Positions 3,777 through 35,472 of a DNA stretch of 45,041 nt are shown piece by piece. Within the stretch, counting starts at the first letter, position 1. Every line of letters begins with the position of its first letter. The notes under the pieces were generated by a model. The model was not told the origin of the DNA, did no database searches, and saw nothing but the letters and a program-made list of their open reading frames with translations. Both the position numbers and the translations under genes were made by a program. Location of the stretch: contig JAFCGA010000008.1 in NCBI GenBank assembly GCA_017608345.1, forward strand, positions 1 to 45,041. Direction: 5' to 3'. This DNA is from Candidatus Pacearchaeota archaeon. Its GTDB lineage: Archaea > Nanobdellota > Nanobdellia > UBA10117 > JAFCGA01.

Positions 3777-4007
3777 CTAAGTATCAAGAGGAGACAGCCT
3801 ACCAGATTTATCCGGGAGTATCTTTATATAGCCGATTCTATCTAATTGTATCCTATTTACTCCGCGCTCGCGCTTGGATCTTATCGTAACTTGTGTTGAA
3901 TCGATAAATGATACTATACCTCTTACACCAGCTTCTATTCCTTGCACAAATACTATAATTTCGCGCTCTTCTTGCATAGCGAATTTAAGTGTATCGTAGT
4001 AATTCAT
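3777..4007 (-). CDS. Small beta-rich protein, partner of the AbrB-type gene
   Basis: This 76-residue product is mostly alternating hydrophobic strands (IIVFVQGIE, GIVSFIDSTQVTIRS, GYIKILP), which would suit a small SH3- or Sm-like barrel. No exact family is recognised. Its ATG overlaps the stop of the AbrB-type gene by four bases (ATGA at 4004-4007), so the two are probably translationally coupled. AbrB-type proteins are often antitoxins encoded first in a pair, which makes this protein a possible partner or toxin. It has none of the PIN or MazF hallmarks I would look for. Confidence 0.6.
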   Translation of the reverse strand: MNYYDTLKFAMQEEREIIVFVQGIEAGVRGIVSFIDSTQVTIRSKRERGVNRIQLDRIGYIKILPDKSGRLSPLDT

Positions 4008-4144
4008 TCTTTCTTCACCAAAACAATATTGCCTTGCTTATCTATCCTAACGTCTATATCATCGCCTTTCTTCCACTGTTTTGCTCTTGCTAAGGCTGAT
4101 GGAATATTCACAAAAAGTTGGCTCTTAGATTGCTGGAGTTTCAT
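4004..4144 (-). CDS. AbrB/SpoVT-type DNA-binding protein
   Basis: The 46-residue product has the AbrB swapped-hairpin pattern: QLFVNIPSALARAKQWKKGDDIDV, then a short strand ending in Lys/Glu. AbrB-type proteins bind DNA as dimers and usually repress their own operon or act as antitoxins. A longer reading to 4225 exists, but its first 27 residues are hydrophobic and unlike the family, so ATG 4144 is preferred. TTATAAAG lies about 20-30 bases upstream of that start. The stop overlaps the start of the next small gene by four bases. Confidence 0.75.
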   Translation of the reverse strand: MKLQQSKSQLFVNIPSALARAKQWKKGDDIDVRIDKQGNIVLVKKE

Positions 4145-4433
4145 TACCTTATAAATAAGCATAGTAAACTTTATAAGGTTTAAGGTCTTATAGAGTACTA
4201 TAAGAGCAGACTTTATTGGGTTCATGCTATAAAGCTGCTGACTTTCAAACTCTTTTCTTTTAGAAATCGCTATGCTTTATTTAACTTCGAGATATTAATT
4301 AGTCGATCGGAAATTATGAATTGTAATCGTCTAATCTCTGAACAAGTTTTTGTCTGCGCGGAGCATATCTATTAAGAATAGCGTTGCTTCCGGAATTAAT
4401 AATTTCTGCTTCAGCGCTTCGTCTACTCTTACG
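4145..4433. other. Intergenic region with short repeats and an in-frame extension of the upstream gene
   Basis: This 289-base gap holds the promoter of the AbrB-type gene and a copy of AAATCGCTATGCT at 4264-4276 (also at 4784-4796). An 11-base match at 4235-4245 is shared with the repeats at 4832 and 5352. On the minus strand, the frame of the gene ending at 4434 stays open after its TAG stop until a TAA at 4314-4316. No separate gene with a normal start codon is visible. Confidence 0.5.
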
Positions 4434-7072: not shown

Positions 7073-7336
7073 ATGAAATCACAGATATTACATAGTCCCA
7101 CACTTGAAAGCGTAAAGATGGTAGAAAAGACAATACGCGAGCATAGCGGTGAGTTCGGCAAATATCAGCTATGGAAGCACTTGCCGAGAAAAATGATGTA
7201 TCAGACGTTTCAAGTAATAATTGACTATCTAGCAGAATCAAATAAGATAATCTTTGATAGAGACAGAGTAATTGTCTGGATCTGGGATCCAAAAGGAGTA
7301 AAGAGAGCTTTAATACGCGGAGTAACAGTTAGATGA
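7073..7336 (+). CDS. Winged-helix antitoxin-like protein
   Basis: This 87-residue product begins SPTLESVKMVEKTI and continues with helices and a strand hairpin (IIFDRDRVIVWIWDP), consistent with a small winged-helix DNA-binding protein. Similar proteins occur widely in archaea beside toxin-like genes. Its stop overlaps the ATG of the next gene by four bases (ATGA at 7333-7336), typical of a toxin-antitoxin operon with the antitoxin first. An AT-rich TATA-like stretch lies at 7051-7068. The antitoxin role is inferred from this layout. Confidence 0.75.
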   Translation: MKSQILHSPTLESVKMVEKTIREHSGEFGKYQLWKHLPRKMMYQTFQVIIDYLAESNKIIFDRDRVIVWIWDPKGVKRALIRGVTVR

Positions 7337-7674
7337 GTGAGAAAGAGATAACTGTACAGTTTTGGGATGAGAAATTATATTCAGAATTTCAAGAATTAAA
7401 AGATGGGACTGGAGAAGATAAAGAGCGGCGCAAGTTTATTGACCGCGCACTAGATGACCTAAAACAAAATCCAGCTTGCGGTATAAAGATTCTGAGTAAA
7501 TTAATACCTAAAGAATATAAGCAGAAATTTGGCATAAATAACTTATGGAAATATAATTTACCCGGAGCATGGCGGTTATTATATACTTTAGAAGCAGATA
7601 AGATTAAGATTCTTGCAATTGTTCTTGAATGGCTAAGCCACAAGGACTATGAAAGGAGATTTAAGTATGGTTAA
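7333..7674 (+). CDS. RelE/ParE-fold toxin-like protein
   Basis: The 113-residue product has the RelE/ParE pattern. It starts with helices, then has NNLWKYNLPGAWRLLYTL followed by strands (KIKILAIVLEWLSHKDYERRF). In RelE-type mRNA interferases this region carries basic and tyrosine residues needed for cleavage; the Arg, Tyr and His here are suggestive only. It is coupled to the preceding antitoxin-like gene by a four-base overlap. Its last eight bases overlap the start of the Rpp21 gene, placing a toxin and an RNase P subunit in one transcript. Confidence 0.75.
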   Translation: MSEKEITVQFWDEKLYSEFQELKDGTGEDKERRKFIDRALDDLKQNPACGIKILSKLIPKEYKQKFGINNLWKYNLPGAWRLLYTLEADKIKILAIVLEWLSHKDYERRFKYG

Positions 7675-9917: not shown

Positions 9918-10439
9918 ATGAGGCTATTCATTGCAATTGAGATTCCCGCTGAAATCAAGCTGAAAATAAGAGCTTACGCTAAGAAATTCGAAGGGGTCCT
10001 CGATGCTAGATTTGTATCTGCTAAGAACCTGCACATAACTGCCAAATTTATCGGTGAAACAAAAGATTCAGATAAAATAAAGGCTAAGTGTAGCGAAATT
10101 AAGTCGGAGAAATTTAGAGTTGAATTAGCTAGAATTGGTGCATTTCCATCTAAAGATAATATTCGAGTTTTGTGGGTTGGCGTCTCGGACGGTGCTAAAG
10201 AAATTGAAAATCTAAATCAACAATTATGTGAAAAATTAGATATGAAAGAATGCCGCCAGTTTAATAGCCACATAACACTTGCTCGAGTGAAGAATGTGAG
10301 AGATAAGAAAAAGCTGGCCGAATTATTTACAGATGAAGAATTCGGAGAGTTCGAAGTTTCTGCGTTTAAGTTGATGAAAAGTACTCTAACTCCCAATGGA
10401 CCTGTTTATGAAGTTATTGAGCAATTTAAACTTCAGTAG
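9918..10439 (+). CDS. thpR: RNA 2',3'-cyclic phosphodiesterase / 2'-5' RNA ligase
   Basis: ThpR enzymes hydrolyse 2',3'-cyclic phosphate RNA ends and can reverse-join 2'-5' linkages. The 173-residue product starts with MRLFIAIEIP and has the two HxT catalytic motifs, at His39-Thr41 (NLHITAKF) and His118-Thr120 (SHITLARV), with usual spacing. It is divergent from nrdG with a 50-base shared promoter region. Its last seven bases overlap the convergent kinase-deaminase gene. RtcA, which handles the same kind of RNA end, is encoded elsewhere in this window. Confidence 0.93.
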   Translation: MRLFIAIEIPAEIKLKIRAYAKKFEGVLDARFVSAKNLHITAKFIGETKDSDKIKAKCSEIKSEKFRVELARIGAFPSKDNIRVLWVGVSDGAKEIENLNQQLCEKLDMKECRQFNSHITLARVKNVRDKKKLAELFTDEEFGEFEVSAFKLMKSTLTPNGPVYEVIEQFKLQ

Positions 10440-11461
10440 CCCGCCTCGTCTAATTCCTTAAATGGATTCTCATTTGCCGCTTTTACCCATTCAGAAACAT
10501 TAACTTCGATTATTCGATTCTCGTTCTTTGTTATAACTTTCGTTATTCCGGCGTTGATAATCATCCGCCGGCACATCTTACAGGGCTTACCCGTCTGTTT
10601 ATTCTCGTTTTCTAAATCTCGTCCAAGGAGATATAGAGTTCCGCCAATCATAAGCTCCCGAGGTGCGTGAATAATCGCATTAGCTTCCGCATGAACAGAT
10701 CTGCATAATTCATAATGCTCTCCCGAAGGAATTTTACGCTCTTGACGATAGCATTTTCCGATATCCAAACAATTCGGTGTTCCTCTAGGTGCACCGCAGT
10801 AGCCAGTGCTAATAATTTGCCCATTATTTACAATCACTGCGCCAAAGGCGCGTCTTAAACAAGTACTACGTCTTGAAGTTGCATCGGCAATTTCTAAATA
10901 GTATTCATTCCAAGAGGGTCTTCCGTTCGTTGGGAACAATACTTCAGTAAGTTTGATGGATAATTCTTGCACATCTGCATTGTTTTCAATAACTATGTCT
11001 GCTGTCTCAAAGCAAACATCAACTCCTGTAACCTTATCTTTCTCAAACATTTGCTTTATCTCTTCTTCTGTATTTGGATCACTTGAGCGATCGCGGGCTA
11101 AAACTCGCTTAATTCTTGTATCTAATTCTGCGGTTATTCCAAGCAGCTTGAAATTATCCATCTGCCGTAGTACTTTTACCTCGCCAACATTACGAATCCC
11201 ATCTACTATGAACTTGCTTCCTCCTGAATTATTTATTTTATCAATAATCTTTTGCGCAAGAATTCCCTCTCCGTGATTTGCCCTTAAACTGTTAGCAACG
11301 GAGATTAAATTATCTCTGATTCCCGATAATCCGCGTTTCTTAGTTTCTTCCCGAACAATATCTGAAGTGGAGAGATACTCGTAGCCTTTTTCCATAAGAA
11401 TTTTAGCTACAGTTCCTTTTCCCGAAGCAATTAATCCGGTTAGTCCGATTATTGTTTTCAT
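10433..11461 (-). CDS. P-loop nucleotide kinase fused to dCMP deaminase
   Basis: Residues 1-180 form a dephospho-CoA-kinase/nucleotide-kinase-like P-loop domain with Walker A GLIASGKGT (residues 9-17). Residues 183-342 form a zinc dCMP deaminase with HAE at 257-259 and PCKMC (Cys294, Cys297). The deaminase should convert dCMP to dUMP, feeding the ThyX encoded just upstream (three-base gap). The kinase half may phosphorylate a nucleotide or regulate the deaminase. Similar domain order is known in the larger anti-phage DcdV/AvcD proteins, but operon context here favours metabolism. The ATG is at 11461. Confidence 0.88.
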   Translation of the reverse strand: MKTIIGLTGLIASGKGTVAKILMEKGYEYLSTSDIVREETKKRGLSGIRDNLISVANSLRANHGEGILAQKIIDKINNSGGSKFIVDGIRNVGEVKVLRQMDNFKLLGITAELDTRIKRVLARDRSSDPNTEEEIKQMFEKDKVTGVDVCFETADIVIENNADVQELSIKLTEVLFPTNGRPSWNEYYLEIADATSRRSTCLRRAFGAVIVNNGQIISTGYCGAPRGTPNCLDIGKCYRQERKIPSGEHYELCRSVHAEANAIIHAPRELMIGGTLYLLGRDLENENKQTGKPCKMCRRMIINAGITKVITKNENRIIEVNVSEWVKAANENPFKELDEAGY

Positions 11462-16522: not shown

Positions 16523-16654
16523 ATGAATGACAAAACGCTTCTTAAGGTTGCTGTAGTGTGGTCGCTGATAGGAATTCTAGCTTTGCTGTTTCTCTCAGAA
16601 TACACTGAACCAGATAATGTAAAGATCATGGAGCTAGCAGAGCATATGGGATAA
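16523..16654 (+). pseudogene. Truncated N-terminal fragment, possibly of an OB-fold exported protein
   Basis: Forty-three codons from ATG 16523 encode an N-terminal membrane helix (LLKVAVVWSLIGILALLFL) and SEYTEPDNVKI before a TAA. The arrangement resembles the N-terminus of archaeal membrane-anchored OB-fold proteins, but the OB domain is absent. After the stop, a shifted frame stays open for 22 more codons to a TAG at 16717 (coding-like: DNVLAQIEDVNTKLLEKY). A frameshift and truncation are therefore likely, although a short one-helix protein is possible. The family suggestion is from memory and weak. Confidence 0.45.
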
Positions 16655-16845: not shown

Positions 16846-17508
16846 CTAGTTTTCATCAACGTCTTCAAATAAGACATACCAGTCTTGATCCCAAGCTAAG
16901 TCTATTTCCTGAGAGATATCACTTAAATTCTTAAGATTTTCGTTAAACTCCGGAATTAAGTCACCATAAAGATTGTAATATCTTATTGCTTCTGTCTCTG
17001 AGCCATAGTTTATTTCTTCTAGTTGTAAACGAGTATATTCTAATAGCTGTAAAGTTTGATCGCATAACTCGGACAGAATTTTTGCCTGTTCTATTCTATT
17101 ATTGATCTCAGTATTATAGAATTCATTCGGAGCGTTATCTTTTAGATTGTTAAGTTTATTTTCTGCATGTAGAAGAAGTTCTTTGCAATCTCCTGACTGA
17201 TCTTTTCCAGTAGTTATATAATTTATAGCAGTATCCTGGTAGTAGTCCTCTGTTTGTGTGTACCAGTTAACAGTATCTAAATTTGCACCAGCAAGATCAT
17301 GAAAACTAGAAGCAGTATGATAATCATTTACAGCAATAATATAATCATTGAAGAACTCAGTATGATCTTCAGGAGACGGCCTGGACGCATAGAGATAAAT
17401 TGAAGAAGCTATAGAAACTACAAGGAGTACTGCAAGGATAGATATAATTAGCTTCGGGCTTTTTGTCTCCTTCTTTTCCACATCCTTATGATCTTTCTTA
17501 TCTTCCAT
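16846..17508 (-). CDS. Membrane-anchored hypothetical helical protein
   Basis: The 220-residue product has a highly charged 17-residue N-terminus and one hydrophobic helix at about 20-40. An acidic, helical outer domain rich in Tyr, Asn and Glu follows, with three cysteines. The ATG is at 17508. It resembles the 472-residue stalk protein in architecture but not in detectable sequence. No family is recognised. It is probably exposed outside the cell. Confidence 0.7.
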   Translation of the reverse strand: MEDKKDHKDVEKKETKSPKLIISILAVLLVVSIASSIYLYASRPSPEDHTEFFNDYIIAVNDYHTASSFHDLAGANLDTVNWYTQTEDYYQDTAINYITTGKDQSGDCKELLLHAENKLNNLKDNAPNEFYNTEINNRIEQAKILSELCDQTLQLLEYTRLQLEEINYGSETEAIRYYNLYGDLIPEFNENLKNLSDISQEIDLAWDQDWYVLFEDVDEN

Positions 17509-17685: not shown

Positions 17686-17928
17686 ATGAAAGAGAAGCTC
17701 ATTAATAGAAGGGAATTCACATCAAGACAACAAGTTGGATTTACTGTAGGTATGGGGCTTATATTTGCTCTCTTTAGTTTCATTGGCTCAGTATTAGCTA
17801 ATATATTATGGTGGTGGCAAATAAATCATGACGGATTTCTTTACCAAACAATATTCATTACAATATCTATTTTTGTAATAATAATTATTGTCGTATGGAA
17901 AGCAATGGTAAAACTCCTATTTAAGTAA
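17686..17928 (+). CDS. Small two-helix membrane protein
   Basis: The 80-residue product has hydrophobic helices at about residues 17-42 and 52-76, with basic ends. The ATG is at 17686. The next gene starts 21 bases after the stop, so the two are likely co-transcribed. The family is not recognised. Confidence 0.6.
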   Translation: MKEKLINRREFTSRQQVGFTVGMGLIFALFSFIGSVLANILWWWQINHDGFLYQTIFITISIFVIIIIVVWKAMVKLLFK

Positions 17929-17949: not shown

Positions 17950-18507
17950 ATGGTGTCAGCGCGTAAATTTGAGCTATTTTTAGTGGTTATTGCAATTATA
18001 GGAACTCTCGGCGGTTCATTCGGCGGTGCATATTTCGGACACGTATTAGCTCGATCGCCAGAAGAATTATTCTTATATATAATTCCAAGTCTAGAAAATG
18101 ATACTTTAGTATTTGACGTTCAGAATCCTTCAACAACTACCGCTAGAAATATAAGAATAAAATTTGAATTATCTGGACAGGGACAAGAGTTCGCTGTAAA
18201 GGAAAAGATAGCTTTCTTAACTAATGAAAAAGCTACTTTACGCGAAAAGTTAAACTATCGGTATATGGCGGTGAGCATTTTTAATAAAGACTCTCAGCGA
18301 CAATTTGCTACATTTGCTACTTATTCAGACTATGTAGAGAGTAACATATCTTTTACAGAAAACTATAAGATATCTGCTAGCTGCGATAACTGTAAGCCCG
18401 AAAATATAGCGATATCTCCACCATATGTTAATACATATAAACTCATTAAATGTGGAAACCTTATGAAAGCTGACGCTTGCATTAGGACCTCTGAGCTTGC
18501 TCTTTAA
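17950..18507 (+). CDS. Single-helix membrane-anchored hypothetical protein
   Basis: The 185-residue product has an N-terminal hydrophobic helix (about residues 8-32, Gly-rich) followed by a beta-rich region containing TLVFDVQNPSTTTARNI, which resembles Ig-like domains that decorate archaeal membrane proteins. A CDNC motif occurs near the C-terminus. GAGGA lies about 15 bases before ATG 17950. A 24-base palindrome and a microprotein reading frame lie directly downstream. Confidence 0.65.
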   Translation: MVSARKFELFLVVIAIIGTLGGSFGGAYFGHVLARSPEELFLYIIPSLENDTLVFDVQNPSTTTARNIRIKFELSGQGQEFAVKEKIAFLTNEKATLREKLNYRYMAVSIFNKDSQRQFATFATYSDYVESNISFTENYKISASCDNCKPENIAISPPYVNTYKLIKCGNLMKADACIRTSELAL

Positions 18508-18524
18508 GCTGAATCCAATAAATT

Positions 18525-18548
18525 ATTCTTTGCAATATTGCAAAGAAT
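18525..18548. repeat. 24-base perfect palindrome
   Basis: The half-site ATTCTTTGCAAT is followed immediately by its exact reverse complement. As RNA it would form a stable hairpin. It begins 18 bases after the stop of the preceding gene and just before a microprotein reading frame, so it could be a terminator, an operator or a translation control element. Confidence 0.75.
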
Positions 18549-18624
18549 TAATGGGGGTTCTTCAGAACAACGTACTCCTGCGATGGGCTGTATTGTGCTG
18601 CCGGTTGTGTTTTATTTTATCTAA
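18538..18624 (+). CDS. Microprotein A (paralogue of the one at 19240)
   Basis: The frame ending in TAA at 18622-18624 encodes SSEQRTPAMGCIVLPVVFY plus two more residues. This matches the microprotein at 19240-19311 at 13 of 21 residues, and 8 of those 13 conserved residues use different synonymous codons. That pattern supports protein-level conservation. The start is unclear: the codon aligned with the paralogue's ATG is ATT (18547), while TTG at 18538 lies inside the palindrome. It may be a live gene with a rare start or a decaying copy. The hydrophobic C-terminal half suggests membrane association. Confidence 0.45.
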   Translation: MQRINGGSSEQRTPAMGCIVLPVVFYFI

Positions 18625-18743
18625 GCGCAGCGTGATGAAATTCCGAAACGAAGTTGAGGTTATTTTATCGAATACAGAAATAAGCAATTAATTACTCAAT
18701 TCAAGCTATAAATTCTTTTAAATCTAGAATTATAAGTAACTGT

Positions 18744-19238
18744 ATGGTAAGATTAGAATTAGAAAAACTTCCAACTAATCGATTAGAAGAAGTAGTTATA
18801 GCAACTGAGGCCAAATATCGACGAATACTTGACTTTGCAGAGGAGGCTGTTGAAGAACTCGGAGAAGAAACAGATTACGAGCTACATGATAGTTACGCTC
18901 GCAGCACGCATAAGCTCACTGATTTCTTTGGGTTTGATTTTCAAACAGATGGGGCGTTCAGCATGTTCGGCGGAAGAGGTCTACGGATAAAATATAATAA
19001 ATCAGAGGTTCTTAAAATTGAATATTGGGACAAAGAAAAATTCCAAGTAACGCGGGTCGTTCCAGGAGAATGGATGGACAAGCTAGCGGAATATATGACT
19101 CAGAAGACTGCTTTATTTGATAAGTATAAGTCGGGGCAAACAGATAGCACTTCTACAGCTACTATAGAACATAATGCTAACGTTCGTAAACGCAATCACT
19201 TGTTTGAAACAGCGAAAAGACTGCAAATGACCCTCTAG
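18744..19238 (+). CDS. Hypothetical soluble protein
   Basis: The 164-residue, charged, mixed alpha/beta product includes RGLRIKYNKSEVLKIEYWDKEKF strands and a helical C-terminus. No family is recognised. TTTAAATC at 18716-18723 lies about 25 bases before ATG 18744, consistent with a leaderless transcript. The stop TAG is followed after one base by the ATG of microprotein B, so the two may be translationally coupled. Confidence 0.65.
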   Translation: MVRLELEKLPTNRLEEVVIATEAKYRRILDFAEEAVEELGEETDYELHDSYARSTHKLTDFFGFDFQTDGAFSMFGGRGLRIKYNKSEVLKIEYWDKEKFQVTRVVPGEWMDKLAEYMTQKTALFDKYKSGQTDSTSTATIEHNANVRKRNHLFETAKRLQMTL

Positions 19239-19239
19239 A

Positions 19240-19311
19240 ATGAATCCTTCAGAACGACGTACCTCTGCGAGGGGTTGTATAATTCTTTCAGTAGTATTCT
19301 ACCTTGTTTAA
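19240..19311 (+). CDS. Microprotein B, 23 residues with a hydrophobic tail
   Basis: The frame starts at ATG 19240, one base after the preceding stop, and ends at TAA 19309-19311, directly against the stop of the convergent helicase gene at 19312. It encodes MNPSERRTSARGC followed by a ten-residue hydrophobic tail ending FYLV. A paralogue lies at 18538-18624. Conserved residues with synonymous codon differences indicate selection on this frame. It could be a membrane-associated regulator or part of the neighbouring small membrane-protein cluster. It is too short for routine annotation, and no described family is known to me. Confidence 0.6.
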   Translation: MNPSERRTSARGCIILSVVFYLV

Positions 19312-35100: not shown

Positions 35101-35472
35101 TTATCTTTTTCGTGTAGTCTTTCTTCGAGTTGTTGTTCTTCTGACAGTAGTTTTTCTTGCAGCTGTCTTTCTCTTTGTTGCAGCTTTCTTAACAGCAGCT
35201 AGCTTATATCCGCCCTTAACCTTGTACATTCTTTGTCCTTTTCTCTGTGCAGTTTTTGCTTTAGTCTTGGTCGAATAAAGTTTTCTTCCACTTGTGGAAG
35301 TTTTTCCTACGGTTCTCTTTGCTGCAGTTTTTCTTTTTGGTGCTGCCTTTCTTGTTGTTTTCCTCGTTGTAGTCTTTCTGGCGGTTGTCCTTCTTTTTGG
35401 CGCTGCCTTTCTGGCAGTCGTCTTCCTCTTTGTAGTTGATCTTTTAGTTGTTTTTAATCCAAATAGTGCCAT
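35101..35472 (-). CDS. Histone H1-like Lys/Arg/Thr/Ala-rich basic protein
   Basis: The 123-residue product is almost entirely repeats of Lys, Arg, Thr and Ala (for example TTARKAAPKRR and KRKTAARKTT), broken only by a short central segment RKGQRMYKVKGGYKLAAVKK. It would be highly positively charged and unfolded. It resembles eukaryotic and bacterial H1-like tails that bind DNA or RNA. ATG 35472 has an ATTTATTAA promoter element about 30 bases upstream. A role in chromatin compaction is plausible but unproven. Confidence 0.8.
   Translation of the reverse strand: MALFGLKTTKRSTTKRKTTARKAAPKRRTTARKTTTRKTTRKAAPKRKTAAKRTVGKTSTSGRKLYSTKTKAKTAQRKGQRMYKVKGGYKLAAVKKAATKRKTAARKTTVRRTTTRRKTTRKR

Follow-up and report, generated by a model that had tools for sequence, protein, structure and literature searches.

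Two short frames in the window, by which we mean the whole 45,041-nucleotide stretch of Candidatus Pacearchaeota DNA analysed here, bear witness to earlier insertions and do not form a microprotein family of their own. We consider it likely that these frames (copies A and B below) derive from tctA, the gene of a TctA-like membrane protein, as 3′ ends that were displaced, that the 3′ end of this gene is a landing site of small gene cassettes, and that the array of cassettes present in the window was later damaged. If so, an apparently unreported insertion hot spot lies in a gene that the majority of genomes in a large archaeal class share, a class for which assemblies are the main source of knowledge. 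This suggests a route by which these small genomes acquire toxin-antitoxin genes and candidate defence genes. The displaced ends of tctA would provide a simple sequence handle for finding and delimiting such cassettes. They also carry a warning: two tiny, synonymously diverged frames may mimic a new microprotein family yet be footprints of insertion.

Copies A and B and the C-terminus of TctA

Copy A (forward strand, 18559-18624, SSEQRTPAMGCIVLPVVFYFI followed by the stop) corresponds to the last ~18 codons and the stop of tctA; copy B (forward strand, 19240-19311, MNPSERRTSARGCIILSVVFYLV followed by the stop) corresponds to a second tctA 3′ end, with its stop in the same position as in copy A. 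Re-comparison of the frames ending at 18624 and 19311 reproduced the 13 identical residues out of 21 reported in the preliminary description, and a recount confirmed that 8 of these 13 residues are encoded by different synonymous codons. At the DNA level, the copies form a 65-nt repeat with 72% identity and sharp ends (left limit at 18560/19247), and no similarity was found between the flanks of A and B beyond it. In a same-strand translated comparison of 2.5 kb, the A/B pair was the top match, scoring 71, whereas 60 shuffles gave 35 on average and 45 at most. A search of the window's genome (match between A and B, 1.1e-4) retrieved no further copies, so that there are two in total; the left part of the repeat (forward strand, 18561-18583, TTCAGAACAACGTACTCCTGCGA, in copy A and 19248-19270, TTCAGAACGACGTACCTCTGCGA, in copy B) likewise occurs at two places genome-wide.

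Substitutions between A and B at codon positions 1, 2 and 3 number 6, 2 and 11. Since both the residue identity (P=0.012) and the number of third-position changes (P=0.008) exceed what random placement of changes would give, the coding signal is genuine, though modest. The predominance of synonymous differences thus bears out the earlier proposal that the frame was under selection at the amino acid level. The rejection of an RNA repeat as the source of the similarity also stands, since the copies fold ordinarily (z-scores of -0.06 and -0.03) and match no Rfam family; an RNA element was rejected on the same grounds. What did not stand is the view of A and B as a stand-alone microprotein family, since both match the C-terminus of a ~400-aa TctA-like protein. 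The selection acted while the frame was part of the tctA gene.

When 371 genomes of the phylum were searched with copy B, two weak outside matches were obtained, each of which was the C-terminus of a ~400-aa protein, and a scan of a separate collection produced one further match, in an order relative (the Candidatus Woesearchaeota MAG G013). The ~400-aa protein is a TctA-like membrane protein (PF01970, E 1e-49 and 2e-55) that typically ends with ..RTHAMGCLLLPVILYFLL and the stop, and its gene is present in 298 of the 378 genomes of the window's archaeal class. Copy A matched positions 10-27 of an HMM built from 45 TctA C-termini (E 2.1e-7 genome-wide) and is 72% identical to residues 382-399 of the TctA-like protein P0001. 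Copy B matched the C-terminal HMM with E 0.0043-0.013 on fetched loci, which is weak by itself. Both copies end at exactly the TctA stop position. While any one match is unconvincing by itself, the identity becomes convincing once the precise agreement of the stops, the fact that both copies match and the context of the locus are combined, and on the strength of these sequence comparisons we regard A and B as the final codons of the widespread TctA-like protein. Compared with the family as defined by PF01970, they match the archaeal C-terminus and the stop position but keep only ~18 of ~400 residues.

One could still suppose that A and B are functional paralogous microproteins, perhaps mini membrane peptides derived from TctA, given that both frames are intact, that their differences are mostly synonymous, that the C-terminus is hydrophobic, and that copy B has an ATG one base past the preceding stop. 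Indeed, copy B is placed as initially described, with a 1-base gap after the stop of the 18744-19238 ORF and its end adjoining the convergent helicase stop. We nevertheless find this explanation very hard to credit. The end of both frames is identical to the TctA end. Copy A has no proper start codon of its own: as was pointed out before, there is no in-frame ATG at its start and only a TTG upstream, at 18538. An ATG does occur at 18551, but in another frame. The translated search suggested in the preliminary description, when run on the 371 phylum genomes, detected no free-standing homologue of A/B, all other matches being located at the ends of ~400-aa TctA frames. Finally, indels or stops in related copies, which had been named as evidence against a microprotein family, do occur: displaced ends in relatives are frameshifted (the first displaced copy of G009), start-less, or of variable length, down to ~8-10 codons.

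Displaced tctA 3′ ends in related genomes

No full tctA was found in the window's own assembly (G000, 88% complete), a search with P0001 returning copy A only, and since there is no intact tctA, displacement is invisible in this genome itself. In at least eight relatives, an intact tctA is followed on its own strand by one displaced tctA 3′ end or by two, with a spacing of ~0.1-3.6 kb each. These are G031 (two ends), G144, G035, G009 (two ends), G315, G008, G109 (two ends) and G334; the last two were added by a genome-wide search, together with the contig-edge cases G454 and G450. At 73 tctA loci of the class, significant displaced 3′ ends were located on the same strand only and downstream only.

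The larger gaps in relatives house MNT/HepT toxin-antitoxin pairs, a Fic protein, GNAT and a candidate-defence ATPase. In G031, the first cassette contains an MNT/HepT pair and the second a Fic-like gene. The single displaced end of G144 is preceded by two paired genes, one of them for a nucleotidyltransferase, and of the two displaced ends of G009, one lies behind a pair with a nucleotidyltransferase and the other behind an ATPase matching PADLOC PDC-S01. There is one short displaced end in G035, and those in G315 and G008 are very short. Cargo ORFs often terminate a few bases away from a displaced copy, as in G031, G144 and G009, and the 18744-19238 ORF does likewise with respect to copy B. 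As is the case with A and B, the differences between displaced copies and tctA are mostly synonymous in G144, G031, G109 and G334. The left boundary of displaced copies is variable, its distance from the stop ranging from about 10 to 27 codons, and this variation exceeds what one fixed core would give.

In eight relatives with intact tctA, the 3′ end of the target is duplicated beyond the insert, and the congener of G031, G042, provides an empty site without the G031 cassettes. A conserved L35Ae-like downstream region begins ~170 nt past the stop of tctA in G042; in G031, the distance from the final displaced copy to this region is ~140 nt. The two displaced copies of G109, c1 and c2, have a common 33-nt arm to the left of ATGGGC that is absent from tctA, which fits the expectation for an element-side arm. 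By analogy with the G109 arms, an element-side arm, as opposed to TctA codons, probably makes up part of the left portion of the A/B repeat (TTCAGAACRACGTACYYCTGCGA); the R-T-x-A found there is still compatible with TctA. In G454, the contig carrying tctA and the contig carrying the displaced copy are identical over the 3′ end and for 30+ nt beyond it but differ in their left sides, as would be the case for alleles with and without the insert, or for an exact repeat.

The tctA end of G031 matches that of G042 at 34/36, compared with 29-30/36 for the displaced copies of G031, a difference that could be due to post-insertion drift or to an element-borne copy. These values do not support a scenario in which tctA now has an imported end and its original one is the displaced copy.

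A different origin of the displaced ends would be tandem duplication of tctA followed by decay that reduced each paralogue to its 3′ end. It is true that tctA decays elsewhere, being split into two frames in G016 (L050) and interrupted by three internal stops in G338 (C51:15602-16783), and that the first displaced copy of G009 is longer and frameshifted. We consider this origin unlikely: decay would not repeatedly spare just the final 10-27 codons and leave a sharp edge on their left, unrelated genes separate the copies, displaced ends accompany an intact tctA in eight genomes, the two G109 copies have a common non-tctA arm, and the site in congener G042 is empty. In G016 and G338, the decay of tctA was independent.

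A putative mechanism and related systems

We propose that small gene cassettes insert repeatedly at the tctA 3′ end, that each insertion would keep the tctA reading frame intact while the 3′ end would be present once more beyond the cassette, and that repeated insertions would thereby build tandem arrays. Since each cassette would bring or displace a 3′ end that once served a working gene, the differences between copies are expected to be mostly silent; insertion would thus account for the synonymous divergence, and no microprotein function is needed. Integration into the tctA 3′ end is probably site-specific and may be carried out by a recombinase, probably of the tyrosine type, that acts in trans; the crossover would fall close to the conserved H-x-M-G-C codons. 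No recombinase was found inside any delimited cassette, and tyrosine recombinases are encoded elsewhere in the genome in 8 of 8 genomes tested.

Tyrosine recombinase genes were also observed 2-7 kb downstream of tctA at three loci (L073, L101 and L068, in G134, G282 and G032, respectively). There is no recognisable displaced tctA end near these recombinases, and all three (integrases within 9 kb) are outside delimited cassettes.

The cassettes could alternatively have entered via homologous recombination between tctA 3′ ends on incoming DNA, with no site-specific recombinase involved. Cassettes devoid of a recombinase, variable left boundaries and repeats of 30-80 nt all agree with such a route; however, the homology is short and often has just 70-85% identity, and both the strict downstream same-strand placement and the common G109 arm better suit an att site, which makes homologous recombination, in our estimate, quite improbable.

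Integration at the 3′ ends of protein genes, with the reading frame restored and one site re-used in tandem, has been described in Thaumarchaeota (PMC6563490). The proposed site-specific insertion at tctA is similar in its target, a protein-gene 3′ end, in the reconstitution of frame and stop by element DNA, and in tandem re-use. However, the published Thaumarchaeota target list does not contain tctA, the archaeal lineage differs from that of the window, and the tctA cassettes, unlike the Thaumarchaeota elements, are integrase-free and only ~0.1-3.6 kb long. The duplicated coding ends are 30-80 nt in the case of tctA, compared with a 13-bp att in the worked example from Thaumarchaeota (PMC6563490). 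The dif modules (pdif) of Acinetobacter plasmids work in a similar manner, being small, recombinase-less, often toxin-antitoxin-encoding and stacked at short recombination sites (PMC6449649), but they use XerC/XerD dif sites on plasmids, whereas the tctA repeat consists of coding sequence from the end of a gene on the chromosome. Integrons and their gene cassettes, including archaeal integrons (PMC9668308), also consist of small cassettes arrayed in tandem, whose cargo ORFs end where recombination takes place; the delimited tctA cassettes differ in having no recombinase gene inside and in that the repeat is the tctA coding end. The tctA cassettes thus resemble dif modules and integrons in their way of working, which does not amount to membership.

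No report of insertions at the tctA 3′ end in archaea was found in the open-licence literature, where the paper retrieved deals with transposon mutagenesis in Methanococcus instead. While this kind of insertion is known, the target tctA, the small size, the tandem array and the toxin-antitoxin cargo appear to be unreported. A bolder and much more tentative interpretation is that we are dealing with a new mobile cassette array of Woesearchaeota-like archaea, in which recombinase-less cassettes would carry their own tctA 3′ end as att and be stacked in trans by a chromosomal recombinase. If true, such an array would resemble integrons or dif modules but would recombine at the coding end of a conserved gene, and its minimal cassettes would carry toxin-antitoxin, Fic, GNAT and ATPase genes.

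The damaged locus in the window

The forward-strand segment 16523-16654, located 1.9 kb ahead of copy A on the same strand, is a 5′ remnant of an ancestral operon and comprises the first 43 codons of a gene for a ~112-aa OB-fold-like protein. In tblastn comparisons, it matched the gene located near or directly upstream of tctA at five loci (L041, L042, L044, L045 and L046) with E 2e-11 to 9e-5. In order relatives, the OB-fold-like gene is found near or directly upstream of tctA and in several of them overlaps the tctA start; the protein of one relative matched PF01336 (OB-fold) with E 1e-5, narrowly below cut-off. Since the OB-fold remnant is kept while the assembly has no full tctA, the window can be seen to contain an ancestral OB-tctA locus whose middle is gone and which has two extra tctA 3′ ends. 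We infer that the body of tctA was deleted after insertion, along with most of the overlapping upstream OB-fold gene, which would have left behind the 16523-16654 remnant, cargo ORFs, copy A, a cassette with a 164-aa ORF, and copy B. Copy A, like copy B, would be a cassette end, since their left arm is common.

The segment expected for the tctA body is occupied by a 220-aa ORF on the reverse strand (16846-17508) that has an N-terminal membrane helix and for which no family was found. It is followed by two forward-strand ORFs that are probable cassette cargo: an 80-aa ORF with two membrane helices (17686-17928; no Pfam or PADLOC match) and a 185-aa ORF (17950-18507; no family) that ends ~50 nt before copy A. 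Between the latter and copy A there is a perfect 24-nt palindrome (18525-18548, ATTCTTTGCAATATTGCAAAGAAT) that forms a stable hairpin (z-score -3.15) and may be a terminator, an operator or a cassette-end feature.

The cargo of the cassette between A and B, the 164-aa ORF (forward strand, 18744-19238), belongs to a sparse uncharacterised family that, with a threshold of E<=0.01, is present in 17 of 378 genomes (3.2e-10 for the strongest outside match) and has aligned FYGFD..MYGG..Y motifs. Its predicted fold model was unusable (pLDDT 36), and no other homologues were found to adjoin tctA ends. PADLOC detected no known defence families among the window cargo. A viral origin was considered and rejected, since no confirmed IMG/VR relative was found for the C-terminal alignment, the 164-aa ORF or the 185-aa ORF. 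The family of the 164-aa ORF (L166-L174) is frequent in family f15, several members of which have no tctA.

Further upstream, genes for 2′-5′ RNA ligase-like and kinase/deaminase-like proteins are located at 9918-11461. Since homologues of these genes are found near OB-tctA in several order relatives, the neighbourhood of the window is partly conserved. Two small adjacent ORF pairs, at 3777-4225 and 7073-7674, resemble, as judged by eye, toxin-antitoxin modules (AbrB-like and RelE-like). In addition, a 123-aa basic ORF at 35101-35472 is repetitive and rich in lysine, arginine and threonine, with KRKTTARK-like repeats.
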